Shown in pieces: positions 10,830 to 29,817 of a DNA stretch of 38,894 nucleotides. The DNA comes from a virus. Under the pieces are notes generated by a model. It searched no databases. It saw only the letters and a list, made by a program, of their open reading frames with translations, and was not told the DNA's origin. Numbering within the stretch: the first letter of the stretch is position 1; every line of letters starts with the position of its first letter. A program made the translations under genes and the position numbers. The stretch is taken from the IMG/VR virus record IMGVR_UViG_3300047546_003107, positions 1 to 38,894 of that record; one strand, given 5' to 3'.

Positions 10830-11275
10830 ACCAGCTCCACCATTGTAAGCGTAATGGCCGGGCATTGCCAACTAGCACCCGCCGCTGCACATGTAATGTA
10901 AAAATAGGCGTAACTCCCGGCGGTCAAACTAAAGGGGCTAGATTCACTCTGCTCCACGAGAGCCAAAGAGGTTGAGGTTACGATGTTTGCAGTAGCGGAA
11001 TCCGAGGTTGAGTAGGTAGTCTTAACCTTCACCCTCACTTCTGTACCGGATAGAGTCGAGCCTATCAGCGCCCGAGCATAAAAGCTCGATGTAGTGTCGA
11101 TATACAGCGCTCCAACAAACACGTCAGTTAACGCCGTGCCTGTTTCGTATATCGGAACTAGAGTTTGACTAGCCATAAAGGGCTCCACTGGTGTCCATAC
11201 ACGCGCTGGCGGTGTCTCTACAACCCCACCCATTAAGGGGTAACGGGACCGGTATCCTGTGCGACGATACCACAC
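10826..11275 (-). CDS. beta-rich fibre-associated protein, unknown
   Basis: A 149-aa protein directly after the tailspike gene, with a TAGTG overlap at its GTG start (11275) and a GAGGA site nearby. A second possible start is ATG 11176, preceded by GGAG. The body from about residue 35 is rich in Thr, Ser and Val with beta-strand periodicity, as in tail-fibre or spike accessory domains. There is no signal peptide. Because it is coupled to the tailspike, it may be a second receptor-binding or spike-completing subunit, but I do not recognise the family. Confidence 0.6.
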   Translation of the reverse strand: MWYRRTGYRSRYPLMGGVVETPPARVWTPVEPFMASQTLVPIYETGTALTDVFVGALYIDTTSSFYARALIGSTLSGTEVRVKVKTTYSTSDSATANIVTSTSLALVEQSESSPFSLTAGSYAYFYITCAAAGASWQCPAITLTMVELV

Positions 11276-14034: not shown

Positions 14035-14847
14035 CTACGGAACATCCGTAACTTTATCCCCTGAATCTACAAACTGCAAGTAGTCTAGATCATACCCGTT
14101 TCCCGTAACATCCTCAACATGTCCAGGCTGTACGATATCATCCAAGGGGTGGTCCCCCATCCTCCACCAGATTAGTGGGGCAAAAGAGGTTAACACTCCA
14201 GGGCGGCCGCCATTGTATATCTGGGTGGCGAACGCTCGCTTGTCCTCCCTCCAGATGGCGATTTCATCGTACTTGCCACCGGCCGCTAGAGTGTATCCAC
14301 TGGTGCCGTTCACGTAGATGTAACCATTACCGTCGGTAATGGATGTCGGTATGGTTCCAGTATAAGACGATGTCCTATCTACTCCATCCACGTAGATGTA
14401 GCAGCGTGTAGAGTTCCCAGCCCCAGAACCATTGTAGACAATGAAAAAGTGGTGCCAGGAAGTATCAACGCGGTTAGCGTCTGTCTCACAGTAGTTACCT
14501 CCTGTACCGACAGTGATTCGCATTTTCGTCGTATCTGTTTGACCCGTACGAATATCAAATTCGCGAGCTGTAGATTTGGCGATATACACATCCGCTAAAG
14601 TGATGGAGCCGGTTGACTTATACCAGAAAGATACAGTTAGAGCTGTGTAGTTACCAGACCAGATATCTGCTGCAGTGCTCATGATTTCATTGGTAGCATC
14701 TAGGTTTACCGCGTAGTTGTTGGTTAGAACCTGTCTACCCCCACCGCTAGTGCGCCCGATGCCTCTAGATTTCGCTACCAAAGCCTCTGCCTCTGTAGCG
14801 CTGCAGCGTACGAAAAGGGTGCAGAGCAGGACTGCACAGATTCGCAT
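14035..14847 (-). CDS. exported LamG/concanavalin-like protein (copy 2)
   Basis: A 270-aa protein. Residues 1-21 look like a Sec signal peptide (MR, hydrophobic core, then ATEAEA cleavage region). Residues about 60-215 match a LamG/ConA-like jelly roll: ALTVSFWYKS, a TSWHHFFIVYNG strand, CYIYVDGVDRTSSY and KYDEIAIWRE. It is a tandem paralogue of the next gene upstream and shares the ending SGDK-x-T-x-VP. Such domains bind carbohydrate or protein. A signal peptide on a gene within the fibre cluster is odd, because tailed-phage fibres normally assemble in the cytoplasm. The start overlaps the paralogue stop (TAATG) with AGGGGTG upstream. Confidence 0.75.
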   Translation of the reverse strand: MRICAVLLCTLFVRCSATEAEALVAKSRGIGRTSGGGRQVLTNNYAVNLDATNEIMSTAADIWSGNYTALTVSFWYKSTGSITLADVYIAKSTAREFDIRTGQTDTTKMRITVGTGGNYCETDANRVDTSWHHFFIVYNGSGAGNSTRCYIYVDGVDRTSSYTGTIPTSITDGNGYIYVNGTSGYTLAAGGKYDEIAIWREDKRAFATQIYNGGRPGVLTSFAPLIWWRMGDHPLDDIVQPGHVEDVTGNGYDLDYLQFVDSGDKVTDVP

Positions 14848-15668
14848 TACGGCACCCCTGTAGTTTTATCACCACTCTCTGTGTTAACAGGCGTACAGTT
14901 AGACCTTCCCATTTGGTCAACTAGGAGCTTACTACCAGAAGCTGAATCGAAATTATCTGAAGCATCATCGCCCATGCGATACCATAGCAGTGGGGCGAAC
15001 CTTCTGAGATTTTGAGTCACTCCTCCGTTGTAGATTGCGGTAGCTTCGTTTAGCTTATTCGCACGCCAGTACGCTACCTCATCAAACTCTGCACCTAGAT
15101 AGTTCGCACCACCTGCGCTAGAATTTATCTCTATCGAAGCCGAGCCGTCCGCCACAGAGTTTTGAATCGTGCCGTTATAGGTTGAGGTCCTATCTACTCC
15201 GTTGATGTAGATGTAACACATAAGGGCGTTAGAACCCCCAAGGCCGTTCCATATAGCTACGACATGTGTCCAGGTACCATTAACCAATCTGCCTGTATCT
15301 GTCTCACACCAGTTCGAGCTTGAGGTGCTTTGAGAAAATCTAACCTTAGAGCTATCAGCCCCACCCGTTTGGAGCACAAATTCGCGGGCCGAAGTCTTGG
15401 CAGTTAAGATTCTATTCGTAGCTAGCGAGGTAGGCTTAACCCACATTGAGATGGTCAAAGCAGTATAACCATCACTCCAAGGGTCTCCGCAATCGAACCT
15501 CTCGTTAGTTGCATCCAGCGTAGCTGTGTACCCGTTACCGTTCCAGGGTATGACCCCCCCAGCTGGGCCGGTAAGACCTCTAACCTTGCTCCGTAATGAG
15601 ATGGCCTCCGCATCTGTAGCCATACAGCGGCAGAGCAGTATACATAAAGCCGCCGCTAGCAGTCTCAT
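14847..15668 (-). CDS. exported LamG/concanavalin-like protein (copy 1)
   Basis: A 273-aa paralogue of the neighbouring protein. It has a similar signal peptide (MRLLAAALCILLCRC then ATDAEA) and the same jelly-roll landmarks: ALTISMWVKP, GTWTHVVAIWNG, CYIYINGVDRTSTY, EFDEVAYWR and FAPLLWYRMGDD. The two copies clearly arose by duplication and have diverged to moderate identity. Export to the periplasm or cell surface is predicted; the Cys before the AT(D/E)AEA region is preceded by Arg, so a lipoprotein is unlikely. It may act as a lectin-like virion component or a cell-surface protein during infection. The ATG directly follows the upstream stop, with GGAGAG before it. Confidence 0.75.
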   Translation of the reverse strand: MRLLAAALCILLCRCMATDAEAISLRSKVRGLTGPAGGVIPWNGNGYTATLDATNERFDCGDPWSDGYTALTISMWVKPTSLATNRILTAKTSAREFVLQTGGADSSKVRFSQSTSSSNWCETDTGRLVNGTWTHVVAIWNGLGGSNALMCYIYINGVDRTSTYNGTIQNSVADGSASIEINSSAGGANYLGAEFDEVAYWRANKLNEATAIYNGGVTQNLRRFAPLLWYRMGDDASDNFDSASGSKLLVDQMGRSNCTPVNTESGDKTTGVP

Positions 15669-16328
15669 TTAGTTACTCTCCGAAACGAAGCAGTAGCTCG
15701 CCCCTCCAGGCGATTGCAGCATTAAGAAAGCTCCAGACTGCCGAGCTTTAGGCGATACACCGTTGAGCGCAGAGGTGCTGCATGTAGCGGAGCTGGGGCA
15801 GTCACCATCTACACGACACGGCCAGGAGTTACTGATAGCCGTCGTGCCTGCGATACATACACCGCTTCGAGCTCCAACGTCGTTAGAGCTGCTGAACATT
15901 TGCCGCATCGGCATGTCCGTAACTGGCACACCCGCAGGCGCAAAGAAACACGCTCCTGGCCCGTCGGGGCCGTTAGCGTCGGTGATAACGCCTACGAGGT
16001 TTGAGGTCGTCGACACCGTAAGCGTAGCGGTTTGCGTCCAGCACGCTACCGTGTCAGCTGCACAGGTGATAGTCGTAGGCGTATTCCAAGCAACCAGCCT
16101 AAGGTCGATGATTCCGGCATACGCTCCATGAACTGTAGGAGATGCTGGAGTGTACAGATACGAGTCGCCGGTCGTAGTGACTACGCGTTTTCCGTAGACG
16201 CTGCCTCCTACGCGCGTGAACTGCTCGGGCTCCGGAATTTTAAGCGGGGCCATGGGGTTATCGGCAAAGGCCACGCCAAGCATTAGGAGTACGGCGGCTG
16301 CGGATACCGCGTAAAAGTACTTTGTCAT
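15669..16328 (-). CDS. exported Cys-rich protein of the fibre cluster
   Basis: A 219-aa protein with a clear signal peptide: basic start, hydrophobic core at about residues 7-20 and an AFA-D cleavage site near 22. The mature part is beta-rich, and its C-terminal third contains a Cys cluster of the form CRVDGDCPSSATC, which suggests disulphides formed outside the cytoplasm. I do not recognise the fold. It heads the transcription unit that runs through the LamG proteins, tailspike and endolysin. Its ATG lies 6 nt after a TATAAT box and has no Shine-Dalgarno. Confidence 0.7.
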   Translation of the reverse strand: MTKYFYAVSAAAVLLMLGVAFADNPMAPLKIPEPEQFTRVGGSVYGKRVVTTTGDSYLYTPASPTVHGAYAGIIDLRLVAWNTPTTITCAADTVACWTQTATLTVSTTSNLVGVITDANGPDGPGACFFAPAGVPVTDMPMRQMFSSSNDVGARSGVCIAGTTAISNSWPCRVDGDCPSSATCSTSALNGVSPKARQSGAFLMLQSPGGASYCFVSESN

Positions 16329-16346
16329 AGGGTAATTATACCCTAT
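16327..16346 (-). promoter_or_regulatory. leaderless promoter with operator-like palindrome
   Basis: On the minus strand TATAAT (16335-16340) lies 6 nt before ATG 16328. The box is centred in a perfect inverted repeat with 8-bp arms ATAGGGTA and TACCCTAT around a 4-bp centre. No good -35 is visible. A DNA-binding regulator could use the palindrome; if transcription starts at the ATG, the palindrome would act as DNA, not RNA. Confidence 0.7.
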
Positions 16347-16358
16347 CTAGTGGGGTTA

Positions 16359-19163
16359 CTAGAGCCTACCCTGAGCCTTCAGCGCAGCTATAATCTGCGC
16401 TCTAGTCATAGTGCTTTTGTTGCCTTGGAGTTTTCTGATTCTCTCTTTTTGTTTCTCGTCGAAAATCAAAGGCAGCGCAGCTTCTGCTCCCGTAGTAGGA
16501 ATTAGAGTCTCTCCTGTAGCCCAACGAGCGGCCGCTATAGCGGCGTCTCTTTCTGGATACGGAGATACCTTATCCTTTTCAAGAAAGGGATTAGCTGTCC
16601 CAAATTTGGCCGAAGATACTTTAGCAGCTACTGGTAGGAAACTACCGCCGGCCAGCTTAAGGGCTTCGGTTCCGACGGAGGATTCTTGGCCTAGAGCATT
16701 GCGTCCAGTAAATGCCGTCTTTCCGAGATTAGCTAGAGGCCCGCCGAGGATACCCTGCTCTTTTGCTAAATCTACTACACCAATCGCTCCAGTAGTAGGC
16801 TCTCTGACTGTAGTCTTAAGACCCTGGCCCGCCGGTATAGAACCCATCCCAACAACCTTCAATCCTTTGTTGATTAACTCCTTTGCGCTATCAGGTAATG
16901 TGGCTGTGATGTTGCGCTTCATATACTCCGGAACTTCGTCGGAGCTGAACTGTGCATCTGCACCTAGATTTCTAGCCATAGCCGGAACTAGATTAGCTCG
17001 TAATGGATTTGCCAGCGCGGCTTTAGGTACACGAGATGCTGCTCTATATCCCCAGCCGATAAATGGATTTAAAGCCTTACCTAGCTTGAGCAATCCAGGA
17101 AACATCCCAGGGTCTGCATAGTTGAAAGCAATGTCATTAACTTTTTGAGCCGCTAGTTTTGGAGGCAAGCCCTGTTGCCTAAACTCTGCAAATAGAGCGG
17201 CTCTATGTGAATCGTCCCACTTAGAAGCTAGTTTCTTCCCAGGGATATTCATTCCCAAATTAGACACTGTGCCTATCTTTTGTGGAATAGTACTAGCAGA
17301 TTCTCCTGTAACGCCACGCGCTATATCTCCAGGTACCAGTTTGCGACTACCTTCTACTAGACGATCGGAGCCTCCAACAATTCCGTAATCTGTAAGCTCT
17401 TTGAGAAATTCTCCTTTGGTAACGCCTCTGCCTAATTCATCCTTGAATAGTGTGTCAGTAAGAGCACCCTTTTTAGCACTCAAGGCTTTGCTCCAACCTC
17501 GGAAGGATTCGCCTCCTGCAATCCAACCTAGCAAGGCATCATCCTTGATATTTTGTAGGTGATAGCCTGGGCGTGCAAACATGCCTTCGCGTATAACGTC
17601 TGCGGCTCCGGAGTGTGCTTTAGATATTCCTTTTAGAGCTTTTTGCGCCAACTCATTCTTTGGATTGATGAGGGGTTCTACTTTACCTGAGAGTCTCTTA
17701 CTGGCCTCTTTTGATAGAGCGTATGCCTCATCTTCTGTTATGAGCCCTCTGGAAAGTTTATCTGCGATAGAAGCATCGAAGCTTCGCTCCGCGCCCCGTG
17801 CATAATTACCTACTAGGCCTTTCAGCTTCTTACCTGTTTCCGGATCTACTCTATCGAAGAAGCCCTCAGACCATTTAGCCAACTTATCTTTATCTGCTAA
17901 CAGCTCTGCGCGCTTTGCTTCTGGGAGCTTCTCTATAATCTTTTTCAGCTTATCTTCAGTGGCACGCTGTATATCCCCACCGGTCTGCTGAATGCTCTGC
18001 AAGAACGCTGCTCGGTCGGCGGGGTTTAGCTTTAAGATATCGAGTTTATCGAACTTTTTAGCTCCTAGTTCGCGCATCTTACCTAGCAACTTCCCACCTT
18101 CGAAGTTACCTACCTGCTGGCCTAGCACGTTCAGCCCGCGCTTTCCTACGAACTCTCCAGCCTCGCCAGCCACCTTGTTAAAGGCTGCCTCAGAAATGCC
18201 CTTGCCTGCGGCGAACTGCTTAAGCATTCTGCCGCCACCTATCTCACCCAATCCACGGCCCGTCGTTAGGGCTTCGGCAGCAAATTCTTTTGCAAACTGT
18301 TTAGCCGCTGCGCCCTTGAGGCCAGAGGCAGCGGCCATCTTAGCACCCTGCGTTGTAGCGTTAGCCGCGGTCTTGCCCCCGCCCACCCCGATGAAGTTAG
18401 TAGGGTCGGTGGCTAAATCTAGTGTAACGTCTTTGGAAAAATCATGCGCGGCTTTATATGCACCCGAGAGCGTGGCGGGTTTATCTGAGCCTAGAGCTTG
18501 AAACCCATAGGCTATAGGGGTTCCTACAACGCCGCCTACAGTACCTCCAACTTCACCTACTGCGTTATACGCTTTGGCTGCTAAGGCGGGGCTGGTCTCT
18601 GCCCACTTTCTAAAATCACTAGCCTCAGCTCCTGGAGCTTTACCTCCGCTGGCTGCGGCGTAAGGATTCCAAGGTACGTTGTTTTCGTTAGCAGATACGA
18701 TCGCGTGTCGAACGAATCTACCGCCGGCTCCTAAAACATCACCGGTCTCACTCAGGAATTTACCACCCAGTGTTAGTGCTTTGTCGATGTAGCCTTGTTC
18801 TCCTTTGGCTACCTCCTCGCCTTTCTTAGTCCACTCTTGTGGAGTTTTACGAAACTCTTCCTTTAAAGCAGTTACACCTTCAGGCCCAGCTTTGCCGTAA
18901 GCTACTTGGCCCGCGGATTTTATAATGTTAGGTTTAGGGCCCGCGGTTTTTCCTTGAATATCCTGGGCCTCGTAGATGTTACCGCGGGACATTAAATTTT
19001 TCTGTATCTCACCCAGCTTCTGTTGCTTGTAAATCTCCATGGCCTGAGCATCTGAGGCTTCAGGTAAATCTGTAGAGTAGTATTCCCCCTCTCGGCGTGC
19101 CTCCTGAGTTAGAGGCAACCTCCCCTGTTGCTGTAGAAGCGCTATAATTTCAGATCGCTTCAT
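16359..19163 (-). CDS. large internal virion (ejection) protein
   Basis: A 934-aa protein, mainly helical with Ala/Gly/Lys-rich stretches. Residues about 200-300 contain Gly/Ala-rich hydrophobic segments such as GGTVGGVVGTPIAYGF that could insert into membrane. Around 680-730 the pattern FNYADPGMFPGLLKLGKALNPFIGWGYR resembles a conserved region (LPD38-like) of large phage virion proteins. In podoviruses such proteins leave the capsid first and form a channel across the cell envelope. The same short motif occurs at the extreme N- and C-termini (SEIIALLQQQGRL and AQIIAALKAQGRL). It is the last of three co-oriented ejection-type genes. Confidence 0.72.
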   Translation of the reverse strand: MKRSEIIALLQQQGRLPLTQEARREGEYYSTDLPEASDAQAMEIYKQQKLGEIQKNLMSRGNIYEAQDIQGKTAGPKPNIIKSAGQVAYGKAGPEGVTALKEEFRKTPQEWTKKGEEVAKGEQGYIDKALTLGGKFLSETGDVLGAGGRFVRHAIVSANENNVPWNPYAAASGGKAPGAEASDFRKWAETSPALAAKAYNAVGEVGGTVGGVVGTPIAYGFQALGSDKPATLSGAYKAAHDFSKDVTLDLATDPTNFIGVGGGKTAANATTQGAKMAAASGLKGAAAKQFAKEFAAEALTTGRGLGEIGGGRMLKQFAAGKGISEAAFNKVAGEAGEFVGKRGLNVLGQQVGNFEGGKLLGKMRELGAKKFDKLDILKLNPADRAAFLQSIQQTGGDIQRATEDKLKKIIEKLPEAKRAELLADKDKLAKWSEGFFDRVDPETGKKLKGLVGNYARGAERSFDASIADKLSRGLITEDEAYALSKEASKRLSGKVEPLINPKNELAQKALKGISKAHSGAADVIREGMFARPGYHLQNIKDDALLGWIAGGESFRGWSKALSAKKGALTDTLFKDELGRGVTKGEFLKELTDYGIVGGSDRLVEGSRKLVPGDIARGVTGESASTIPQKIGTVSNLGMNIPGKKLASKWDDSHRAALFAEFRQQGLPPKLAAQKVNDIAFNYADPGMFPGLLKLGKALNPFIGWGYRAASRVPKAALANPLRANLVPAMARNLGADAQFSSDEVPEYMKRNITATLPDSAKELINKGLKVVGMGSIPAGQGLKTTVREPTTGAIGVVDLAKEQGILGGPLANLGKTAFTGRNALGQESSVGTEALKLAGGSFLPVAAKVSSAKFGTANPFLEKDKVSPYPERDAAIAAARWATGETLIPTTGAEAALPLIFDEKQKERIRKLQGNKSTMTRAQIIAALKAQGRL

Positions 19164-19171
19164 AGGTTACC

Positions 19172-20107
19172 TTATAGCCCGAACATTGCAGGATCTAGTT
19201 CCTCGTTAGGATCGCCTTGTAGCATCTTTTGCTGTTCAGGGGATAGTGCCCCGCCTTGTTGTGGAGCTACACTAGCCGCGGGCTGTACAGACATACCCTG
19301 TTGCAGTTGCTGCTTAACAAGTTGCGCCTGCTGTCGTAACTGTGCAGCTGCAGCCCTATCGTTGGCCGAGGTGAGAGAATTCGGATTATTCCTAGCATTC
19401 TCCTCCACCAAGTTAGCCTTAGCCTCGGCGGCTGAAACGAAGCGCTCCGCATCCATCATGTTGTTAAACTTAAGAGCTTCATCTAATTGTTTTCTACCGG
19501 AAGCTAGTACGGCCCCTGCCTGTTTGCTCGTGTTACTAACCAGATTTTGCCAAGAGGCGGAAAATGGTGCTCGAGCTATAGTGCCAGCAGTTAGAGCATT
19601 CTGCTGTACAGCAGCCTTACCAGCAGCGGTGGAAACCGCCTGAGATCGCGTGGTGTTAAACTCCTTAACTCGCATGTCTTCTAATTCTTTGGCTCCCTCA
19701 GGAGAGAGCCAGTATTCTGGAGGTTTAGACCTGGCATATGCTTGGTGTTCAGGAAATCTCAATAAGTTAACAGTCTTCTGGTTCGCCTCTAAGCCTTGTA
19801 GTTGTAGTGCGTTTTGGTGGCCACTACGAAACCTCTCCATAGCATTTTGGGCTTCGGTGGCGTTTAGTTCGTGTTTAGCTCGTTGGAGCTCAAACTCCTT
19901 CGGAGCATTTTCCAGTTCGTAGCGTGCACGCTCTGCATCTACCTGCGCTTTAGCTAGCCGAGAAGGCATCTCCGCCAACTGCTGCTGGTATTGAGTATTC
20001 TCCATCTGCCGTCGACGGCGAGTGTCTACGATATCGGAGCCGAACTTATACCCCTGCTGGAAATCTCCAAAGAGGTTACCTAGTGCTATGCGATCTGCCG
20101 GTTTCAT
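19172..20107 (-). CDS. coiled-coil internal virion protein
   Basis: A 311-aa protein, almost entirely helical. Residues about 30-110 and 150-260 are rich in Ala, Gln and Glu with coiled-coil periodicity, and the C-terminus is Gln/Pro-rich and disordered. It lies between two larger ejection-type proteins, as the mid-sized ejection protein does in many podoviruses. A strong G-rich Shine-Dalgarno (GGGGGG) precedes ATG 20107. Assignment is by composition and position; no catalytic motif is present. Confidence 0.65.
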   Translation of the reverse strand: MKPADRIALGNLFGDFQQGYKFGSDIVDTRRRRQMENTQYQQQLAEMPSRLAKAQVDAERARYELENAPKEFELQRAKHELNATEAQNAMERFRSGHQNALQLQGLEANQKTVNLLRFPEHQAYARSKPPEYWLSPEGAKELEDMRVKEFNTTRSQAVSTAAGKAAVQQNALTAGTIARAPFSASWQNLVSNTSKQAGAVLASGRKQLDEALKFNNMMDAERFVSAAEAKANLVEENARNNPNSLTSANDRAAAAQLRQQAQLVKQQLQQGMSVQPAASVAPQQGGALSPEQQKMLQGDPNEELDPAMFGL

Positions 20108-20108
20108 A

Positions 20109-22529
20109 TCAACCCCCCTGGATCCCCAACATCGGAGAACTTAACTGGCCTAGGCCAAGGCTCATCCCTTGAGATCCAGGAGCATATCCTGTACCATATT
20201 GAAAACTACCTGGGCCTGCTACCCCCACCGGATTGAAGTTTACTGCCTGAGCCTGCGGTGCATACCCAGGCGCGGGCTGATTGTAGTTTCTCCACGCTGT
20301 AGCTCCAGAGTTAGAGGCGTTGGCTGCTTCGACAGCTCCCATGCCTCCGAGGATAGCTCCAGATGCAGCGAGCGAAGCGCCGCCGGTATAGGGTGCGAGG
20401 ATTGCACCACCTACGCCTACGCCTATCTTTGCGAGAGTCATACCGAGGCTCGGGCTGTTAGCTTCTGCCTGCAGCTCCGCAGCTCGGGCGTTAGCTGCGT
20501 CTGCTTCAATTTTCGCAGCCTGCATTATGTTTAGTGCCTCTTGTTGGTCTCTGCGGTTTGTCGCTCTATTGTACATCTGTTGGGCCAGATTTATCTTAGC
20601 CTCGTGCTGACGTATAGACTCTTGCGCAATCGCCATTTCTTTTTGGAGATTGAGCATAGTTTCTTGCAACTGATTCTGCGAATCGATAGCGTAACCCGTC
20701 TCCGAACTTTGACCTACAAGCTGGTTCACGCTAAGACCATTACGGGCTGCGGTCTCCTGCATAGACTTGAGAGTTAGTGCCTTATTTCTAGCCGCCACCT
20801 TTCGGGCGTCTGCGATAGTCTTATCATACCCGGCTTTTACGGCCTCTAGATTTATGGGCTCGTCAACTAACTTCTTAAGGTCTTGGTATGATGCCTGCTC
20901 TAGTGCATCCTTCTCCGCTAAGTCTGCATCCCCTCTCTGCTGATTGATTGCGTTTTTAGCAGTTTGGACAATATTCCCTACCTCAGGACGGTCATATGTA
21001 TCTTCTAGGTAGTCTCCTTGAGGGTTAACGAGTCTAAACTCGTCGTCCTCCTGATAGCCGTATCCTTGTGATATAAGGTATGCTATATCGTCTGCCGTGG
21101 CACCGTTGCCTAATTGAGAAGCAATCTCGGAGTAAGACTTAGATCCTGTACCGTCTCTGTCCTGAACTACAGTGTTAGGATCTGCATGATTTTTGTTTCT
21201 GTTGGAGCCGTAATCGGGGGCTTCTGTTACTGTGCCTTTACCAAAATTTTCGCTAGTGAATGCACCGCCTACGGCATTGATAATAGCTCCAGTGCCAGGA
21301 TCTATAGCTCCAATCGCAGCCGCTGTACCTCCAACATTGTCTGGTGTGATCTTACCAGGAGAAGTTGCAACCAGCCCTTGCTTGCTTGTGCCTATTCCAC
21401 CTTGCTGCGACGGTGCTGCACTAAGCCCTTGTTGGCTAGTACCTATACCGCCTTGTTGTGTACCTCCCGCAGCTAGCCCGTTCTGGCTTGTGCCTATGCC
21501 TCCACCGCGCGCTTTCGGCACTACATAATCCACACCTAACTGCTTAAGTTGTTGTACTGCCCACTGATGCTTCTGTGTTGCGATAGGATCGAATGGATTT
21601 GTAGCTAATATACTAAGCGCGTGGTCGGCGTTAGCAGTAAGATCGTCGATTCTCTTTTGCGCGTTTGTAGTTTTCTGTTCTTCTACCCGTTTTGCGCTTT
21701 CGTCTTTGTTAGTCTGTCGTGTAGCTTGCAGCTCTGCGAATCTAGGATCTTTCGAAAGCATCTCTGCATAGAGTGGATCTTCTTTGGCTTTACGCTCCAT
21801 TTCCATCTTGAGTTGATCAAAGTTCTTAAGCTCTGCGGGTGTCTCGCCACGCGCCCCAACTTGGAACCTCCCCGCATATCCAGTTCTGTTCATCGAGGCG
21901 TTAAGGTTTTCGAGGTCTTGGTTAACCGTACCTGTCACATCTCCAGCGACTGTTTGATCTTTCATTCGATCATACTGTATGGAGTTGTTACTCTGCTGCC
22001 GCATGTTCGTAGCTTGATCTTGGGTATAGCCCCCAGCCACGCGAGCGTTAGAGTCTCCGCGCAAGGTACCCGTGGTTCCGTAACCGACTGAGCTATCTAG
22101 CTTTACACCTGAGCGGTCTGCTACTTGGCGTTGAACTCTACCGCTACGCCATCCGCCTCCGGTAGATACTGAAGCGTTTCTAGCCGCCGGGCCTCGCAGT
22201 AAAGGGTTGCCTTGAATGTTACCCGCGGCGTCTCGCAACGGAGCGGCTGTAGGTGCTAGGCTAGAGGCATCGCTATCTCCTTGCATGGGGGGAGCCCCAG
22301 GGGCTCTATTCTGTGGCAGTCTAGGGCCAGAAGAGTAGGAGCTACCTGCAACCACGGGGGCCTTAAATGCTCCATACTGTTTTGGGTTATATCCTGTGTC
22401 TAAGTTATCGTAATTGCCCTGTACAGGAGCCGGGGTACGTTGCGGAGGCTTAGCATCACCCAGCCGAGTGGGGGAGCCAGAGGGGCGTACCCTAACCCCG
22501 TTAATCATAGAGCCTATCTTGATCGCCAC
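20109..22529 (-). CDS. internal virion / ejection protein with Gly-rich membrane segment
   Basis: An 806-aa protein. The N-terminal about 200 residues are disordered and rich in Gly, Ser, Pro and Asn. The middle holds three 17-residue repeats of the form GGIGTS-x2-GL. A long helical region (about 540-690) follows, and near 700-740 a Gly/Ala hydrophobic stretch (GVGVGGAILAPYTGGASLA) could insert in membrane. Similar Gly-rich segments occur in podovirus ejection proteins and some tail-needle partners. It starts at GTG 22529 with TATAAT exactly 6 nt upstream. It is the first gene of a three-gene ejection operon. Confidence 0.65.
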   Translation of the reverse strand: MAIKIGSMINGVRVRPSGSPTRLGDAKPPQRTPAPVQGNYDNLDTGYNPKQYGAFKAPVVAGSSYSSGPRLPQNRAPGAPPMQGDSDASSLAPTAAPLRDAAGNIQGNPLLRGPAARNASVSTGGGWRSGRVQRQVADRSGVKLDSSVGYGTTGTLRGDSNARVAGGYTQDQATNMRQQSNNSIQYDRMKDQTVAGDVTGTVNQDLENLNASMNRTGYAGRFQVGARGETPAELKNFDQLKMEMERKAKEDPLYAEMLSKDPRFAELQATRQTNKDESAKRVEEQKTTNAQKRIDDLTANADHALSILATNPFDPIATQKHQWAVQQLKQLGVDYVVPKARGGGIGTSQNGLAAGGTQQGGIGTSQQGLSAAPSQQGGIGTSKQGLVATSPGKITPDNVGGTAAAIGAIDPGTGAIINAVGGAFTSENFGKGTVTEAPDYGSNRNKNHADPNTVVQDRDGTGSKSYSEIASQLGNGATADDIAYLISQGYGYQEDDEFRLVNPQGDYLEDTYDRPEVGNIVQTAKNAINQQRGDADLAEKDALEQASYQDLKKLVDEPINLEAVKAGYDKTIADARKVAARNKALTLKSMQETAARNGLSVNQLVGQSSETGYAIDSQNQLQETMLNLQKEMAIAQESIRQHEAKINLAQQMYNRATNRRDQQEALNIMQAAKIEADAANARAAELQAEANSPSLGMTLAKIGVGVGGAILAPYTGGASLAASGAILGGMGAVEAANASNSGATAWRNYNQPAPGYAPQAQAVNFNPVGVAGPGSFQYGTGYAPGSQGMSLGLGQLSSPMLGIQGG
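21361..21510 (-). repeat. three 17-residue repeats (51-bp units) within ejection protein
   Basis: Three consecutive units encode GGIGTS-x2-GL-x-A-x4-Q. They are similar but not identical at DNA level. They fall in the disordered, Gln/Gly/Ser-rich middle of the protein and may be a flexible linker or a multivalent binding site. Confidence 0.75.
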
Positions 22530-22544
22530 CTCGTTATTATAGCA
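22530..22544 (-). promoter_or_regulatory. leaderless extended -10 promoter for ejection operon
   Basis: TGCTATAAT on the minus strand (22536-22544) is an extended -10 element whose last base is 6 nt from GTG 22529. No convincing -35 is seen. Transcription is expected to start at or within a base of the start codon. Confidence 0.75.
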
Positions 22545-22545
22545 C

Positions 22546-23136
22546 CTAGCCTACCAAAACGTGTTTCAATCCAAAGGTAACGTAAAGCCCGCGGAGCTCT
22601 GCAGTGCCTGCGGATGCGCCCTGTAAACCTATGGTGATATAGTCTCCATTTGTGAAAGGGATTAGGGGAGAGGTCAAAGGACTATCGGAAGCCAGTGTCC
22701 AGATATAGTTATCAGTGTCTAGCTCAATTTGCTCACTGCCGATTAGAGCTCCTGTGGGAGTTACACCATCTCCGTTAAGGTAAAAGCCAATGAGCGCGTT
22801 GGCTGTATCTCTATTGTTCAGATAGATCTGAATAGAGGTTAGCCAGGTTTCGTAACCGTCCTGAAGGATAGGCTGCCACTGCATGATGTCTGCCTTAGTG
22901 GATGCCGTTATGGTATAGCCCACATCTGCTGTAAGGTCCGCGGCGGACTGTACAGGTAGAACGCAAATGGTATCGTATGTGACCGTATACCTATCCGCGA
23001 TCTTGTCTGCCGTAATGCCTCCGGCCAGCTGATCGTTTCCGACCGAGCTAACCATACTAACTACATCGGAGAAGTTAGCGTTCAGTTCTGAGGCAACCAC
23101 TGTGCCTGAAAGCGAGGGATAGGATACAGAAGACAT
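22546..23136 (-). CDS. fibre-like virion protein
   Basis: A 196-aa protein. The N-terminal SGTVVASELNANFSDVVSMV and ITADKIADRY pattern is the common head segment of phage fibre and spike proteins. The C-terminal about 120 residues are a beta sandwich (TSIQIYLNNR, FYLNGDGVTPTGALIG, GDYITIGLQG) resembling jelly-roll domains of secreted proteins. It is probably a short tail fibre or a decoration subunit. A TATAAT box lies 9 nt upstream of ATG 23136, with GGAG in between. Confidence 0.65.
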   Translation of the reverse strand: MSSVSYPSLSGTVVASELNANFSDVVSMVSSVGNDQLAGGITADKIADRYTVTYDTICVLPVQSAADLTADVGYTITASTKADIMQWQPILQDGYETWLTSIQIYLNNRDTANALIGFYLNGDGVTPTGALIGSEQIELDTDNYIWTLASDSPLTSPLIPFTNGDYITIGLQGASAGTAELRGLYVTFGLKHVLVG

Positions 23137-23145
23137 ATCTACTCC

Positions 23146-23154
23146 ATTATAACA
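23146..23154 (-). promoter_or_regulatory. extended -10 promoter for fibre-like gene
   Basis: TGTTATAAT on the minus strand, 9 nt before ATG 23136. A palindrome CAGGTTGTAACCTG (23160-23173) lies just upstream over the -35 region and also covers the stop of the preceding gene. It may be an operator. Confidence 0.6.
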
Positions 23155-23156
23155 GG

Positions 23157-23843
23157 CTACAGGTTGTAACCTGAACGATACAGCCCGGTCTTGCTATTTA
23201 ACATAACCGCCGGCGTGGGGCGGGCCCTGTAGTTAGCCGTGAGCTTTTCAAGCAGGGTGGTTCCAACACCCCTAGCTTCGAAGCCCCCGGCCTGGGAGTT
23301 ATAGCCTCCAAAGGAGTCGGTCCAAAATCCGAAGGTTCCAGTACCGCCTGAAACTGAGATAGCAACGAAGTACTCTCTACCAGGTAACAGCGTAGGTCGC
23401 TTACTGAATGTGAAGCTAGATGTGGTGGGGAATACCGTAGACATGTCCGTACCATATACGGGTGCAGAAGCATATGTCACTGCTAAAGCTCCATCTGTAG
23501 CATCCGCCACTGCATACTTCACAAACCTAGGCATCCAGGTGGTAATGGCCTCCTCTACGTTCGGAGGTTGACTGTCTGCGGTGTAGATACCGACGGTCAG
23601 CGTAGCTGCTGTGGGTGTTCCTGGGCTTGTGTAATTCAAGGCCCCGAGGTTTAGGCGGTATAGCCTCATAGGCCCAGGCAAGCAGATACGCTTTATGAAA
23701 ATCGAATCCGTAGACACCGACATGAACTGCGTGGGTTCTCCAGACCTGTACTCTAAAAGAGGGGGGAGCTCCTGCGCTAGATTGTCCAGGGTGCGTGGTG
23801 TAATGACACGCTGCCGCAGCTGCTGTTTAACTCTAGTGCTCAC
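23157..23843 (-). CDS. beta-rich tail/virion protein
   Basis: A 228-aa protein whose GTG start overlaps the stop of the nozzle gene (GTGA), so it is translationally coupled to it. After a basic N-terminal helix (residues 1-30), the rest is beta-rich and resembles a jelly-roll module: RLYRLNLGALNY, TLTVGIYTADSQPP and GREYFVAISVSG. The module has the same kind of strand pattern as the next gene's C-terminal domain, so the two may be related decoration or fibre proteins. No catalytic motif is seen. Confidence 0.6.
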   Translation of the reverse strand: MSTRVKQQLRQRVITPRTLDNLAQELPPLLEYRSGEPTQFMSVSTDSIFIKRICLPGPMRLYRLNLGALNYTSPGTPTAATLTVGIYTADSQPPNVEEAITTWMPRFVKYAVADATDGALAVTYASAPVYGTDMSTVFPTTSSFTFSKRPTLLPGREYFVAISVSGGTGTFGFWTDSFGGYNSQAGGFEARGVGTTLLEKLTANYRARPTPAVMLNSKTGLYRSGYNL

Positions 23844-26782
23844 TGCTTACTACGCTGCCCTTTCTGCGCGAGCAGTAGTTCCGCACCCTTGAACTTAAAC
23901 CTAGTAGTACCGCTGAGCATATACTGAAAGGATGTACAGCGCTGGCCGTTGAGAAGATTAATCTTAACGAACTGGTCTCCTTCCGCAGAGTACGAGCTAC
24001 CGTAAGCATCTCCATATGCTGTGGCGGGATCTGTAATCGAAACTGCGGTGGAGTCTTCCGTAGAAATTCTACCGTCGAGGTAAGTCGACACGGTTATATC
24101 ACTTTCGAAAGACTCATCCGCTCGGAGCATAATCGCCATCGGCGCAATGGTTTGACCCTTGAAATTTAGCGGCGGAGATTTCGCATACCACGAGACACTA
24201 CTGCCCGAAAAGGTAGAGGTGTCATCGTTTTCAGCCTCCACCATAATAGATACAATCCCGTCAATACCGCCAAATAGCATACGTTCATTGCCAAGCTCAT
24301 CATATTCTCTCCCGATTGCAGAAATACCTCCGCACGGATAACGCCAAACCCACCAGGCCTTGGTTGTGAAATCGAAAACCAATATCGTATCAAGATGAGT
24401 CCTACCAGCGCGGGCCACGGCTAGATAGTAACGGTTCTCAAATTTACTCAAGGCCGCGACACTTTTTGAAAGCAAACCTTTATTGATACCGCCAGGAACT
24501 AACTGCTCCCAACTCTCCGTAACAGGCACGAGAGTATCGGCTCCGACGGAATAGATACGCACACCGTCCTGCGTGGGGCCGATTAGAGAAGGCACATTAT
24601 TAATGAAAATCTTATGGGTGGCTCGATGTGAAGCAAAGCCAATACCCGTACTTTCAATCTGAAAGCTAAACATACCATCCGCTCCTGGTGGGGGCGCAGC
24701 CCAAACTGAGGTTGGGGTATACACAACCAGCGCGTTACCTAAAACGGACATGCCCGTAATGTTACTTCCTTGAGAGTCTCGGATTGAGTCTTCGAACTTC
24801 AACGGCCATAGGGTACTGTCGTTTGCTACAGACCAGTAGATATTCTTAGAGTCTGCAAGCACAACCTTTCCCATAAAGCTCTCGATGAATTGAGCGTTAG
24901 GTACTTGAGAGCGTAGTTGGAATTTAGAAAGTTGTGTAGAGCTTATATTTGATTCAGTTTCATCGTCATGTGCTCCAGCAATTCCAAGATAGGTCTGAAC
25001 TGCGGCAGAGTTAGGGTCTGTGTTTGGGACCAGACTTTCGAAGAATCTACCGTCCCAGGTTAAGACTCCATTTTTTCCGTTAACAAATAGGAACTTTTGC
25101 AGCGTAGGGTCAAAGACGTTATTCCAAAACTCACCGGCCCTAAACGTCCAAGGTGCTTCTTTGCCTAAGTAGAAGTGATGGAATCCTTGCCATACGCTGG
25201 AAGTACTAGCCGCCCAGCCGTTGCCTCCATAAGAGTCAAACTGCAGGTACTGAGGGGTGTTGTAGTATACCGTTGGAAAATAATCCAGTCCCTCTTCAAG
25301 CCGACACTGTGCGTGTGGTGCGTAGATGTGAAACGTGCAGGCCGTGGTCGGAGTATCGGTAGAGAATCTATATACAACGATCGTAGTATCTGTACCCGAA
25401 GTTGTATTGCTAATGATGTGTCTTTCTTCTCCAATGTCTAAAGCTGTGGCGCCCGCAGTCTCAACACGTATCGTGCAATTCTTAAGCGCATTGTCTTGAG
25501 GCGTAGGTGATAAATTAGAAAACACGAAGGTGTCACGATTGAGCGTAGTATCTTCTGAGACACTAGCAGGAGTTAGGCTAGTGTATAGTTTCGCGCCACG
25601 AAATTGAGCTATAGGGTCTGCGGCCGCGGCGCTGCGTTGCCTAGAAAACCATTCGTAACTTTGATCGAGTTTAACCAGACGATTGGTTAGGCTATAATTA
25701 GGAGGCCCACCGATAGGATCTGACGCAATCCATAAGTTTTTACCATCATCTGTAGCTATCCCAGTAGAGAAGTCATCCGGAAATACACATCTAGCCCCGC
25801 CGGCTAAGAGTGTTCGGTTACTCTCCATCCAGTTACCAGGTTGCGATATAGCGTGATAAACTCCCGTGCCCTTGGCAGGTAGCCCCCTATCGTCCTTCAA
25901 AAGTTTGAAGCCAACCTTCGGAGCCTTGTACTTAGTCTTCCACGCGGAGATGTTACCGCCGAGTTCGAAGTTAGTGCGAGAAGTTCTATCACCTCCAAAA
26001 AATACAGCCGAATGCCCGGCCCTGGTTTTAGCGGAAAGGATAGAGTTTACAGGCGATAGGGTAATCGCTTTGATTCCAGGGCACCCGCAGGTAGTTGTTG
26101 CAGTGGAGGATGCCCAGTTAGCTGCTACACCCTTACCATCTACGATTGAGAGCCTAATCCAATATCTACTATAGTCCAGCGTAACCGGAGAGGTTGGAGT
26201 GGTAAGACCCCACGAATCAGAAGAACTCGTAGGGTCCTCGTCGTAATCGTGGTACGGCATATGCCATACGATAGTCCCGCTTTGGGTTAGTGTGTGTAGC
26301 CAAACGTTACCACTGGAATCTACGTTTCTTCCAACTGTAAAGTCTACCACTCCTCCCAGCTCCGTCCATTCGGTATTGCTAGAGGCGAACTCTACTTTAA
26401 TTTTCCGATGCGCTGTGTAGGCAGTGCTATCAGAGTTGATTATGTAGGGGATGTTGATTCCGTTAAACGGTACCTCTGCGCCGAAATACAGATAAGAGCT
26501 AGAGGTCATATTCGAAACGCTAAGTACGTTCTGCCTGGTGGGGTAAAACGTAGTACCGTCGAAGGTAGTAATTGCAGAGCCGCCGGGCTCCTCGAACTGT
26601 GGGCCGTGACAGATTGCCTTAAATGCAGGGCGGCGCTTTAGGTAGCCATCTTTCTCTTCTACGTTTAGGTGGTCTACCGCCCGCTCGGGAGAGAGCATCG
26701 CCCCCCCGCGACCCTCAGCTTCTGTGGTGTTAATGCCACCGATAAATTTACTGAGAGTAACGGGGGGAACTTTCTTGGACAT
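23840..26782 (-). CDS. tail nozzle / tail tubular protein B-like
   Basis: A 980-aa beta-rich protein. The N-terminus (FIGGINTTEAEGRGGAMLSPE, then DHLNVEEKDGYLKRRPAF) matches the conserved opening of podovirus nozzle proteins: GGI(N/D)T, a NV strand, then L-x-RP. The central and C-terminal parts contain propeller-like strands such as NALVVYTPTSVWAAPP and YYLAVARAG. The protein forms the distal tube of the short tail and would contact fibres and spikes. ATG 26782 follows AGGA. Its length is within the range of large nozzle proteins. Confidence 0.72.
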   Translation of the reverse strand: MSKKVPPVTLSKFIGGINTTEAEGRGGAMLSPERAVDHLNVEEKDGYLKRRPAFKAICHGPQFEEPGGSAITTFDGTTFYPTRQNVLSVSNMTSSSYLYFGAEVPFNGINIPYIINSDSTAYTAHRKIKVEFASSNTEWTELGGVVDFTVGRNVDSSGNVWLHTLTQSGTIVWHMPYHDYDEDPTSSSDSWGLTTPTSPVTLDYSRYWIRLSIVDGKGVAANWASSTATTTCGCPGIKAITLSPVNSILSAKTRAGHSAVFFGGDRTSRTNFELGGNISAWKTKYKAPKVGFKLLKDDRGLPAKGTGVYHAISQPGNWMESNRTLLAGGARCVFPDDFSTGIATDDGKNLWIASDPIGGPPNYSLTNRLVKLDQSYEWFSRQRSAAAADPIAQFRGAKLYTSLTPASVSEDTTLNRDTFVFSNLSPTPQDNALKNCTIRVETAGATALDIGEERHIISNTTSGTDTTIVVYRFSTDTPTTACTFHIYAPHAQCRLEEGLDYFPTVYYNTPQYLQFDSYGGNGWAASTSSVWQGFHHFYLGKEAPWTFRAGEFWNNVFDPTLQKFLFVNGKNGVLTWDGRFFESLVPNTDPNSAAVQTYLGIAGAHDDETESNISSTQLSKFQLRSQVPNAQFIESFMGKVVLADSKNIYWSVANDSTLWPLKFEDSIRDSQGSNITGMSVLGNALVVYTPTSVWAAPPPGADGMFSFQIESTGIGFASHRATHKIFINNVPSLIGPTQDGVRIYSVGADTLVPVTESWEQLVPGGINKGLLSKSVAALSKFENRYYLAVARAGRTHLDTILVFDFTTKAWWVWRYPCGGISAIGREYDELGNERMLFGGIDGIVSIMVEAENDDTSTFSGSSVSWYAKSPPLNFKGQTIAPMAIMLRADESFESDITVSTYLDGRISTEDSTAVSITDPATAYGDAYGSSYSAEGDQFVKINLLNGQRCTSFQYMLSGTTRFKFKGAELLLAQKGQRSKQ

Positions 26783-26790
26783 AGAAAATC

Positions 26791-27252
26791 CTACTTCTTG
26801 AAGCTAGATGCAGTTTTAGAAAACGCCTCTTTCTCAACGCGCTCAAGGGTCGCGAGCTTAACGCGCATCTCGTGCTCCTTCTCTTCGAGCTCTTTTTCCA
26901 AAAGCTTCGCGCGCTTCTCGATTGCCGCCACCCGGTCTTGCTCGAGCTTAATGATTTCGGATTCGCGTTTTAGAAAGTTACTATATCCTTCCTTCTCTGC
27001 CTTCTTAAAACAAGCCGAAACAAACTCCGCGGCGGGGAGGTCTACGAAGTTATTGTTAGTCCCTTCATCCGATACCTTTTTCCATACCTCGATGAAACGT
27101 TTCATCTTGTGTACGTTACCCTTAGCACTGGTAGTCTCTACATCGTAGAATTCTTTTTGTCGTTCGAACGTGCCCTCTTTGGGGAGCAGTACAAACGTTG
27201 TGCCGCCATGGATAAAGGTGAACACTTCGCTGCCCACGTTATAGATTTTCAT
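26791..27252 (-). CDS. hypothetical protein between adaptor and nozzle
   Basis: A 153-aa protein. The first 60 residues look like a small beta domain (YNVGSEVFTFIHGGTTFVLLP), and residues about 95-150 are a highly charged coiled coil. The start overlaps the adaptor stop (ATGA) behind a strong GGAGGT. Its position between the head-tail adaptor and the nozzle suggests a tail assembly or scaffold role. No family is recognised. Confidence 0.6.
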   Translation of the reverse strand: MKIYNVGSEVFTFIHGGTTFVLLPKEGTFERQKEFYDVETTSAKGNVHKMKRFIEVWKKVSDEGTNNNFVDLPAAEFVSACFKKAEKEGYSNFLKRESEIIKLEQDRVAAIEKRAKLLEKELEEKEHEMRVKLATLERVEKEAFSKTASSFKK

Positions 27253-27959
27253 CAGTAATACCTCCGTATATTCGCTACACGGCGCCGGCCTTGGTTGTAG
27301 CGTGTCTGTCGCCTAAACCTATCCCATAATTCCTCATAACGCACTAGCCGGTTCTTAGGAATTTCATCATCTTCTTCTTGCAGGCGTATGGCCGCGCCCA
27401 CTCCTATAAGCTCCTCGTGCGCTACGGGATAGGCGTGCTGGGATGTGGCGGAGGTGATAGTCGGGTTACCCGAACTATCGTAAGGTGTTGCATCATATGG
27501 GAGCAGTGGGTTTTTTACATACCAAATCCGCAGAGTCTTAGAGGATTCTGGTTTTGGTACATACTTGATGTTGTTCCCTACACGCGTCCAGGAGTAGACC
27601 CCGAAAGGACTAACGTAACTGTCGATGGTAGAGGGGCTCAGATACAGGAGCTCGAGGGGGTAGCTAGAGTCGGTATAGTCCTCGACCTTATAAATCGGAG
27701 AGTACAAGGCTGCGGCCGGGATTGCTACACTCTCCGTGTTGGCGGTATAGGACAGTGTGGTACTGGTCAAAAACGCTGCCGGGTCTATAGCCAGCTCCGC
27801 GTACATGGCCGAGAGTTGGTCGATAATCGCCTGGTCTATATCCGCATCGCTCCAACGCTGGCGGGCTGTAGTGCTAGAGGTGTCGCCAATTAACCTTCTC
27901 ACGCGCTTGCGTAGCGTGGTTATAGAAGAGGCGGGTGCCTCATTTGCTACGATTGCCAC
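27252..27959 (-). CDS. head-tail adaptor (tail tubular protein A-like)
   Basis: A 235-aa protein. The opening TLRKRVRRLIGD, then RWSDADIDQAIIDQLSAMYAEL, is the usual pattern of podovirus adaptor proteins that bind the portal and begin the tail. A beta-rich middle is followed by a helix (HEELIGVGAAIRLQEE) and a basic C-terminus (RRRVANIRRYY). Its place just upstream of the nozzle gene agrees. It starts at GTG 27959 with TATAAT 6 nt upstream and no Shine-Dalgarno. Confidence 0.72.
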   Translation of the reverse strand: MAIVANEAPASSITTLRKRVRRLIGDTSSTTARQRWSDADIDQAIIDQLSAMYAELAIDPAAFLTSTTLSYTANTESVAIPAAALYSPIYKVEDYTDSSYPLELLYLSPSTIDSYVSPFGVYSWTRVGNNIKYVPKPESSKTLRIWYVKNPLLPYDATPYDSSGNPTITSATSQHAYPVAHEELIGVGAAIRLQEEDDEIPKNRLVRYEELWDRFRRQTRYNQGRRRVANIRRYY

Positions 27960-27965
27960 TCAATG

Positions 27966-27971
27966 ATTATA
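27966..27971 (-). promoter_or_regulatory. leaderless promoter for adaptor operon
   Basis: TATAAT on the minus strand, separated by 6 nt from GTG 27959. It sits in the 14-nt gap after the preceding gene. No good -35 match is present. Confidence 0.7.
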
Positions 27972-27973
27972 CC

Positions 27974-28921
27974 TTACCGCTTAACCAGAACGGGTACCTT
28001 TTCTTCTGTGGTTTCCACAGCTGGCTCGTCGACAATAACCCTTTCTGGAATGACGATTTCCGGTACAGTCTCTCGACCCTCTACGTGAGATTTCTGGTCT
28101 AGCGTTCTGGGGTTTGCATTCTCATCCATAAAATCTCCGGAGCTTGCATCGTTTTGAACGATAGGCTCCCAGACCGTGCCACGCTTTGCCTTTACTCTGT
28201 AGCCTTCTTTTTCAACGATAACGTATTTCTCCGGGTTTTCCTTTACCTTCACATCCGGTACGAAGTACGGCTTATCCATACAGCCCGCGTCTCTATTCGC
28301 ATCAGTCTGAGCCTGCCACCAATAGTAGTCTAGGAAATCGTCTTGCTTGTCTTTGTATACGCGCTCGCGCTCTTTGCTGGCTTCTACATCGTGAGCGTCG
28401 GCGTTTTTCATTGCACCGTCGACTCCGTACTTTACACGGTTGAACTTCTCAATCTCTTCGAAGTCTTTGCGGTTAAAGGTCCTGTACTCTCCAACATATG
28501 TGGAGAAACACTCTAGGAAAGGATTGCCGCGGTAATCGCTAGGAACTATGGGTAAACCGTCCTCGTTTTCTAGAGCGGCTTCGCTACATATGTATATGCA
28601 CTGATAGAGGTTCTCGCCTTTCTCCGGAGCAAAGTGCCTTTCGAACAGGGCCCAGCGCTTTAGGTGTGGATGCATAGCCACTTTGAGTCGGCCTTGTCTA
28701 TAGTCTTCTCCGAAGGTTTCCTCTAGCCATATCTGGATTTCCGGCCCGGGCTCTTCGTCTTTGCGGAAACTTTCAGGGTCTCGGTCTAAGAACATCCAGT
28801 CGAATACCGTGCGACGGTATCTCATGGAGTGGCCGGGCCTTACGCGCTTACCCCCATCGGGGTCGGCCATAGGCGCGTCTCTATTCCAAAGCTTATCTTT
28901 CCAGTTAAACTGTGAGGTCAC
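27974..28921 (-). CDS. hypothetical virion-module protein
   Basis: A 315-aa protein that I do not recognise. It is hydrophilic and rich in Trp, Tyr, Asp and Lys in its first 200 residues, with a helical region at about 155-205, and ends in a Glu/Val/Pro-rich tail (EIVIPERVIVDEPAVETTEEK). It lies between an exported protein and the head-tail adaptor, where head-completion proteins are often found. It starts at GTG 28921, 6 nt after TAGAAT. It has no signal peptide. Confidence 0.65.
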   Translation of the reverse strand: MTSQFNWKDKLWNRDAPMADPDGGKRVRPGHSMRYRRTVFDWMFLDRDPESFRKDEEPGPEIQIWLEETFGEDYRQGRLKVAMHPHLKRWALFERHFAPEKGENLYQCIYICSEAALENEDGLPIVPSDYRGNPFLECFSTYVGEYRTFNRKDFEEIEKFNRVKYGVDGAMKNADAHDVEASKERERVYKDKQDDFLDYYWWQAQTDANRDAGCMDKPYFVPDVKVKENPEKYVIVEKEGYRVKAKRGTVWEPIVQNDASSGDFMDENANPRTLDQKSHVEGRETVPEIVIPERVIVDEPAVETTEEKVPVLVKR

Positions 28922-28927
28922 GGCTAC

Positions 28928-28956
28928 ATTCTAGCCTGCGAGTGTGGGAGTGTCTA
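28928..28956 (-). promoter_or_regulatory. leaderless sigma70-like promoter
   Basis: On the minus strand -35 TAGACA (28951-28956), 17-bp spacer, -10 TAGAAT (28928-28933), then 6 nt to GTG 28921. Each hexamer differs from consensus at one position. Confidence 0.78.
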
Positions 28957-29817
28957 CTTCGCACCAGCAGGAGCGCGGACCGTAATGGTAACCGTCGTGG
29001 CGTTGTTAAAAGTCATGGAGCTAGTCGTGGTATATGCCGTATCGAAGGTGGTATTCCGAGTTTGCAAATCCAAGGCGCTGTTTGTAACATCCACGCGGTT
29101 GCCAGATCCAGCATTATCAAATGCCGTTGCACTATCCGCTGAAGCGCCATTAAGACATACAGTAGCAACCGGGGGTACTCCAGCAATAGGCAAAGTCATA
29201 GGTGTCGTAACCTTCGAGTAACAAATCCGTTTAACGGCCTCGGCACTTGAGACCTTGAAAGGCAAGCCAATTTTCCAAGAAGAGGCGAGCATAAGAAAAT
29301 CGCTAGAGTCTCCATTTGCACAAGTAGCGGTAACGCGCGTAACCTTTTCGAAAACCTTAGTGGTCATAGATGCCGCATTCTCCGTAACTGTTTCGGCAAG
29401 AGACGTAATACTATTGTCCTTGATGGCGTTACCGAACTGGTCGAAGCCGTAAACCACCACATTGGTACACGTCAAGGTGTCATCCGCATTACCGTCCATA
29501 ATCAAAACCTTGAGCTTCGAAGGGATAGGGCCAGGCTTGAATCCGCTAGACGAGTCTATGGCCGCGGCGTATGCAATCCTTCCAACGATACCATTGTACC
29601 CAGCCAGGTTATTTTCCGTAGTGTTTCGGAAAAACAAGTTGCCGTTCTTGTCTTTATCGTCTTCATCCACAATGCGCAATTGTGTGCTCGTATAGTGAAA
29701 GGTCTGCGTACGCAACTCAGGCATAACGTCTTTCGACGAGATGCCACCGCCCCCAGGGGACTGAGCAAATACAGAACCGGAAACCGCCAAGGCCGCGATG
29801 GTAACGGAAAGCTTCAT
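28954..29817 (-). CDS. exported protein next to the capsid gene cluster
   Basis: A 287-aa protein starting at ATG 29817. Residues 1-18 are a classical signal peptide (MKLSVTIAALAVSGSVFA, then Q), with an AxA-like cleavage site. The mature part is beta-rich with Thr, Asn and Val and has four or five Cys. Its position after the capsid gene is where decoration proteins usually lie, but those are not exported. I do not recognise the fold. TATAAT lies 6 nt upstream; there is no Shine-Dalgarno. The annotated frame could extend to 29883, but that would lose the signal peptide and overlap the HNH gene. Confidence 0.7.
   Translation of the reverse strand: MKLSVTIAALAVSGSVFAQSPGGGGISSKDVMPELRTQTFHYTSTQLRIVDEDDKDKNGNLFFRNTTENNLAGYNGIVGRIAYAAAIDSSSGFKPGPIPSKLKVLIMDGNADDTLTCTNVVVYGFDQFGNAIKDNSITSLAETVTENAASMTTKVFEKVTRVTATCANGDSSDFLMLASSWKIGLPFKVSSAEAVKRICYSKVTTPMTLPIAGVPPVATVCLNGASADSATAFDNAGSGNRVDVTNSALDLQTRNTTFDTAYTTTSSMTFNNATTVTITVRAPAGAK

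Follow-up and report, generated by a model that had tools for sequence, protein, structure and literature searches.

Tailed-phage particles are held to assemble wholly in the cytoplasm, which limits their adhesins to disulfide-free folding. Filamentous phage pIII and pVIII are virion proteins that carry Sec signal peptides, and the particles that contain them are assembled during extrusion through the membrane. Known already, then, are Sec-exported coat proteins in filamentous phages and single exported proteins in late gene clusters, such as Lom of phage lambda. In the Thermobifida phage P1312, ORF22 combines a signal peptide with a carbohydrate-binding module and has been suggested to act as a secreted protein that prevents superinfection (PMC4569894). 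The locus described here, IMG/VR virus record IMGVR_UViG_3300047546_003107 (38,894 bases, analyzed over its full length and referred to as the window), contains a minus-strand late module of the P22-like podovirus type in which four proteins begin with predicted Sec signal peptides: LamG proteins 1 and 2, a cysteine (Cys)-rich protein and a post-capsid protein (Table 1). Judging from sequence features, all four are very likely exported. Export is well supported because the leaders are kept in a related phage at about 25-29% identity, do not appear in the virion clusters of standard podoviruses, and occur on proteins with paired, conserved Cys residues.

An earlier note on this DNA had placed four open reading frames with Sec-type leaders in the virion gene clusters, and all four exist where it put them, with the correction that they lie on the minus strand; plus-strand translations at these positions are full of stops. 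Its description of two products as LamG-like is borne out by PF13385 matches of 44.7 bits (LamG protein 2) and 56.1 bits (LamG protein 1) against a gathering cut-off of 27.6, and the Cys cluster that it reported corresponds to eight Cys in the mature Cys-rich protein.

Signal peptides were scored with a home-made three-region scorer, not SignalP, trained on 33 Sec signal peptides from a single species, E. coli; leave-one-out scores of the training signals run from 6.7 to 29.6, and a threshold of 7 was used. The signal-peptide prediction proposed in the earlier note yields scores of at least 7 for 4 of the 39 called genes in the window, exactly the four named, whereas of 128 internal-ATG controls 2 score 7 or more and all stay below 10. 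The Cys-rich (MTKYFYAVSAAAVLLMLGVAFA) and post-capsid (MKLSVTIAALAVSGSVFA) leaders score 16.1 and 17.0, respectively, values equaled in none of 2000 shuffles of residues 2-35; those of LamG protein 1 (MRLLAAALCILLCRCMATDAEA) and LamG protein 2 (MRICAVLLCTLFVRCSATEAEA) score 9.4 and 7.9 and are equaled in 24 and 21 of 2000 shuffles. A basic n-region and a short hydrophobic core are seen in all four proteins (scores 7.9-17.0). Small residues at positions -3 and -1 are clear in the Cys-rich (AFA) and post-capsid (VFA) proteins and ambiguous in the LamG pair, whose leaders are atypical in that the core is followed by Arg-Cys. Cleavage in these two proteins is best placed at ATE-A, ATD-A or CMA-T (the hyphen marking the cut), not at the AEA of the earlier note; all four Sec-type signals that it listed are present, two of them weak. 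Other export routes find no match in these leaders: the twin-arginine (RR) motif is absent from all four n-regions, as is the lipobox [LVI][ASTVI][GAS]C from all four proteins, the sole core-end Cys residues coming after Arg (FVRC, LCRC).

The same scorer finds no signal in the virion clusters of T7 (0/13 genes), P22 (0/11), P-SSP7 (0/16) and N4 (0/16), nor in 43 virion-cluster genes of three distant portal or terminase relatives. In lambda, 2 of 22 virion-cluster genes score, namely Lom and, in a tail fiber gene, what looks like a false positive. LamG relatives from another seven viral loci have no signal at the start. Comparing signal-bearing phages (15/64 genes) with controls (2/121) gives a Fisher p of 2.7e-6, a guide value only, since the genes of one phage are not independent of each other and the signal-bearing phages came to notice through those signals.

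Leaders on proteins encoded in particle-gene clusters recur in three relatives of the window phage. The closest annotated relatives found are the uncultivated Manatee Spring phages MW202622 and MW202658, with portals 24% and capsids 26-27% identical to those of the window; the relatives available for comparison are few, and all are remote. In MW202622, the counterpart of the post-capsid protein (E 2e-14, 29% identity) adjoins the capsid gene and has the signal MKLTTWLGLLITAVFLAFTVGAHA followed by A (score 23.5), and that of the Cys-rich protein adjoins the large ejection-like gene and has the signal MRKLVAASIITVITILFQLACIALAHA followed by A (score 15.1, 25% identity). The latter match is weaker, with a single-comparison E of 3e-5 over a Cys-rich stretch, and occupies the same position as the window gene. 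A third exported protein, with a score of 17.5, follows the Cys-rich counterpart; a relation of this protein to the LamG pair is not supported. Homology of MW202622 7040-7939 to the LamG pair has no BLAST or Pfam support. The leader of MW202622 5740-6726, picked out by eye from an internal ATG, falls below the scorer threshold and is left uncounted.

In the more distantly related P22-like podovirus MW202554, 6 of 19 virion-cluster genes have signals (scores 7.9-11.7). Their products include a LamG protein (PF13385, 8e-14), a GH28/pectate-lyase protein (PF12708, 3e-9; phrog_2234, tail spike) and a Collar tail fiber (PF07484, 1.7e-23). In an IMG/VR relative of this phage, whose capsid is 71% identical, the cluster contains two signals and a homolog of the collar protein. 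Comparison of the two collar proteins shows a leader that is 27% identical with an invariant ADA before the cleavage site, then 81% identity over residues 19-70 (52 residues), and 30-42% in the remainder. Signal peptides evolve as a fast-changing hydrophobic leader ending at a conserved cleavage motif, and the collar pair shows this pattern, as expected of a genuine signal peptide fused to a conserved fiber N-terminus; the 81%-identical stretch is what the attachment end of the fiber would be expected to show. A caveat is that both collar leaders are without a basic n-region.

Two other features of these clusters may be recorded. In MW202554, a block of four exported genes (24079-29579), encoding the GH28-like protein, the LamG protein and two unknowns, lies directly behind the portal gene. 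Small exported proteins of 164 residues each occupy the same position in L018 (12140-12634) and in MW202554 (18416-18910); they are 33% identical by alignment and were missed by BLAST.

The Cys content of the proteins provides a second, independent line of support for passage through an oxidizing compartment, in which disulfides would presumably form. In the window, mature exported proteins contain 1.87 Cys per 100 residues, against 0.61 for other virion-cluster proteins; the corresponding values are 2.5 and 0.49 in MW202622, where the figure takes in the below-threshold 5740-6597, and 1.17 and 0.35 in MW202554. Exported proteins are thus enriched 3-5 times in all three phages. In the window and MW202622, each of the eight proteins treated as exported has an even number of Cys; in MW202554, two of the six have an odd number. 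None of the four Cys of the post-capsid protein has been lost from its MW202622 counterpart, which is 29% identical, and the Cys-rich proteins of the two phages have four Cys in common.

Two of the four genes have a TATAAT box exactly 6 nucleotides before the ATG, which supports their start codons and fits leaderless transcripts; on this ground, the post-capsid start is placed at ATG 29817 and not at the upstream TTG 29883. Across the window, 5 of the 6 exact minus-strand TATAAT boxes lie 6-9 nucleotides ahead of virion-gene starts (16335-16340, 22536-22541, 23146-23151, 27966-27971 and 29824-29829), with near matches ahead of 19163, 28921 and 38734. This arrangement of -10 boxes set at start codons looks like leaderless late transcription. 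The boxes also stand ahead of non-exported virion genes, and so they do not mark a separate acquisition of the exported ones.

The earlier note had offered two alternatives, virion parts added late or proteins displayed on the infected cell. Its export premise holds up, and both alternatives remain live, the collar fiber of the relatives favoring the first; no sequence test run here separates virion attachment from cell-surface display for the window. The reading preferred here, tentatively and at a little under an even chance, is that the four proteins are exported and then come to lie on the virion exterior. Made late alongside the virion genes, they would serve as substrates of the host Sec system, cross the inner membrane, presumably lose their leaders, and presumably form disulfides in the periplasm. 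The LamG pair, which is probably glycan-binding, and the Cys-rich and post-capsid proteins would then bind to the particle exterior, serving as accessory adhesins or as decoration. Attachment, the most conjectural of these steps, would occur when lysis mixes periplasm with cytoplasm. Virion-type domains, the conserved fiber N-terminus behind the signal in the relatives, and the kept position beside capsid and ejection genes are all consistent with such a course. The exported proteins probably play an accessory part in the window phage, given that its candidate tail spike lacks a signal.

Several points weigh against placing these proteins on the virion. The window has a large candidate tail spike of its own, which lacks a signal, so the exported lectins need not be the adhesin, and the likeness of the GH28 protein in MW202554 to pectinolytic enzymes secreted by bacteria fits free secretion. 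A tailed-phage particle is as a rule finished before the cell lyses, and a description of Sec-exported virion parts in a tailed phage was not found in the open-licence literature. The LamG signals are weak, and the scorer is home-made rather than SignalP. As for the Cys residues, a high content in beta-rich surface proteins may have other causes, and the candidate tail spike, which has no signal, itself reaches 1.4%.

Part of this evidence agrees better with exported effectors that never join the particle: late lectins, secreted or bound to the cell surface, that would cover receptors, keep out superinfecting phage, capture released glycans or clump cells together. This is a considerable possibility, judged here to be somewhat improbable. 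It is the plain prediction from a signal peptide itself, it has a precedent in Lom, a signal-peptide protein inside the lambda tail cluster found by the same scorer, and it accords with the proposal made for P1312 ORF22 (PMC4569894) and with the likeness of the GH28 protein to a secreted bacterial enzyme. The Cys-rich gene also has its own TATAAT box, but the box precedes ordinary virion genes as well and the promoter is therefore not moron-specific. Effectors of this kind are further disfavored by the Collar tail fiber among the exported set of the relatives, with its strongly conserved post-cleavage N-terminus, and by the post-capsid gene, which stays beside the capsid gene in two diverged phages.

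It is possible, at somewhat less than an even chance, that a group of P22-like podoviruses finishes its particles in two compartments, with heads and tails made in the cytoplasm and Sec-exported, disulfide-bonded adhesins, fibers and capsid decoration joined to them at or after lysis.

Alternatively, the hydrophobic N-termini might remain uncleaved, as membrane anchors or as assembly or entry segments, leaving the proteins cytoplasmic or membrane-bound. The atypical LamG leaders, with Arg-Cys after the core and weak cleavage sites, would suit this idea, as would the missing basic n-region of the collar leaders. It is nevertheless unlikely, given that the cores are short and signal-peptide-like, that the -3/-1 sites of the two strong leaders are ideal, that Cys enrichment and conservation fit an oxidizing compartment, and that identity in the collar pair jumps exactly at the predicted cleavage site. 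Chance or artefact, in the form of wrong start codons or random hydrophobic N-termini, is very improbable: two of the four leaders reach only the 1% level against composition-matched shuffles, but the other two are never equaled in 2000, two start codons are fixed by TATAAT 6 nucleotides upstream, and leaders recur at the same position in MW202622 and in the collar pair.

The features of the window that bear on this argument are collected in Table 1. Membership in the P22-like podovirus group rests on the P22-type portal and the gp10-like protein, both present in the structural cluster, and the terminase is encoded on the plus strand at the edge of the late module (phrog_2, 3.6e-30). The Cys-rich, LamG 1 and LamG 2 genes are contiguous without gaps, directly behind the ejection-like gene. 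The LamG genes (14035-15668, minus strand) are adjacent tandem duplicates, 42% identical, with the leader kept in both.

Table 1. Positions of the exported-protein genes, their leaders and promoter-like boxes, and the neighboring late genes in the window
Feature	Position	Strand	Basis
Candidate tail spike, 916 residues, without signal peptide	11275..14025	-	Position and size alone; no family match
LamG protein 2, 270 residues, 2 Cys in mature part, weak signal MRICAVLLCTLFVRCSATE followed by A	14035..14847	-	PF13385 1.9e-11; score 7.9
Predicted signal peptide of LamG protein 2	14791..14847	-	Cleavage uncertain, residues 17-22
LamG protein 1, 273 residues, signal MRLLAAALCILLCRCMATD followed by A, or CMA followed by T	14847..15668	-	PF13385 5.9e-15; score 9.4
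Predicted signal peptide of LamG protein 1	15612..15668	-	Cleavage uncertain
Cys-rich protein, 219 residues, clear signal; first of three-gene export cluster	15669..16328	-	Score 16.1
Predicted signal peptide of Cys-rich protein, MTKYFYAVSAAAVLLMLGVAFA followed by D	16263..16328	-	Scorer
TATAAT box, 6 nucleotides before Cys-rich start codon	16335..16340	-	Sequence scan
Large ejection-like protein, without signal peptide	16359..19163	-	Synteny and homology with MW202622
Homolog of MW202622 'phage stabilization protein' (P22 gp10-like)	23840..26782	-	27% identity
Post-capsid protein, 287 residues, 4 Cys in mature part, clear signal	28954..29817	-	Score 17.0
Predicted signal peptide of post-capsid protein, MKLSVTIAALAVSGSVFA followed by Q	29764..29817	-	Scorer
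TATAAT box, 6 nucleotides before post-capsid start codon	29824..29829	-	Sequence scan
Major capsid protein	30587..32035	-	phrog_14242 6.7e-9
Portal protein, P22-like	33568..35643	-	phrog_156 1.2e-34

Queried against IMG/VR, the portal, post-capsid, Cys-rich and gp10-like proteins had no close relatives, and the terminase matched just a 23% fragment; scans of genome contigs likewise gave no close relatives. The post-capsid protein and the LamG pair were modeled with AlphaFold from one sequence and two sequences, respectively; the predicted local distance difference test (pLDDT) values of 32 and 40 are too poor for a fold search, and weak matches of the post-capsid protein to antibody chains in the PDB (E 0.06 and worse) were disregarded. 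Elsewhere in the window, a GroES-like co-chaperonin (Cpn10, 1.7e-19) is encoded at 591-860 (plus strand), a pentapeptide-repeat-like protein with ADLSGADL repeats lies among the early genes at 7352-7873 (plus strand), and no tRNA genes were found. Two small proteins with a hydrophobic N-terminus (9210-9506 and 9484-9759, minus strand), the first also with a hydrophobic C-terminus, adjoin the endolysin gene (10419-10871). Neither has a Pfam match; they are possible spanins, which would point to a host with an outer membrane.

Were Sec-exported fibers, lectins and decoration confirmed, the adhesins could be stabilized by disulfides, and particle formation would gain an extra assembly stage after lysis. 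Were the proteins free lectins, lytic-looking phages would have in their virion operon an exported set acting on the infected cell or its neighbors. On either reading, the combination of a signal peptide and paired Cys in a virion cluster gives a signature with which phage genomes can be screened.

A podovirus virion cluster that encodes several exported proteins, with tail-fiber relatives, did not turn up in the open-licence literature searched, and each of the closest known systems shares some part of the arrangement. Lom, an outer-membrane protein of lambda, likewise has a Sec signal peptide and a gene inside the late virion/tail cluster; it differs in being a single protein of another family that is not known as a virion part, whereas the window has four, including LamG proteins, with tail-fiber relatives. 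ORF22 of P1312 differs in its metallophosphatase domain, its single gene, its Gram-positive host and a function that is a proposal. Phage virion LamG proteins (PF13385), as in Synechococcus phages S-H68 and S-B05 and IMG/VR loci L002-L008, have the same domain and a similar C-terminal end (WYRMGDD...DKVTDVP-like), but those examined lack a start signal and are poor in Cys. The structural modules of MW202622 and MW202554 resemble that of the window in having portal, capsid and gp10-like genes in order and exported proteins within the cluster, although their capsids are only 21-27% identical to that of the window; the virion genes of P22 are without signal peptides. Filamentous phages share Sec-exported virion proteins with the arrangement proposed here and differ in that their particles are extruded, not tailed.

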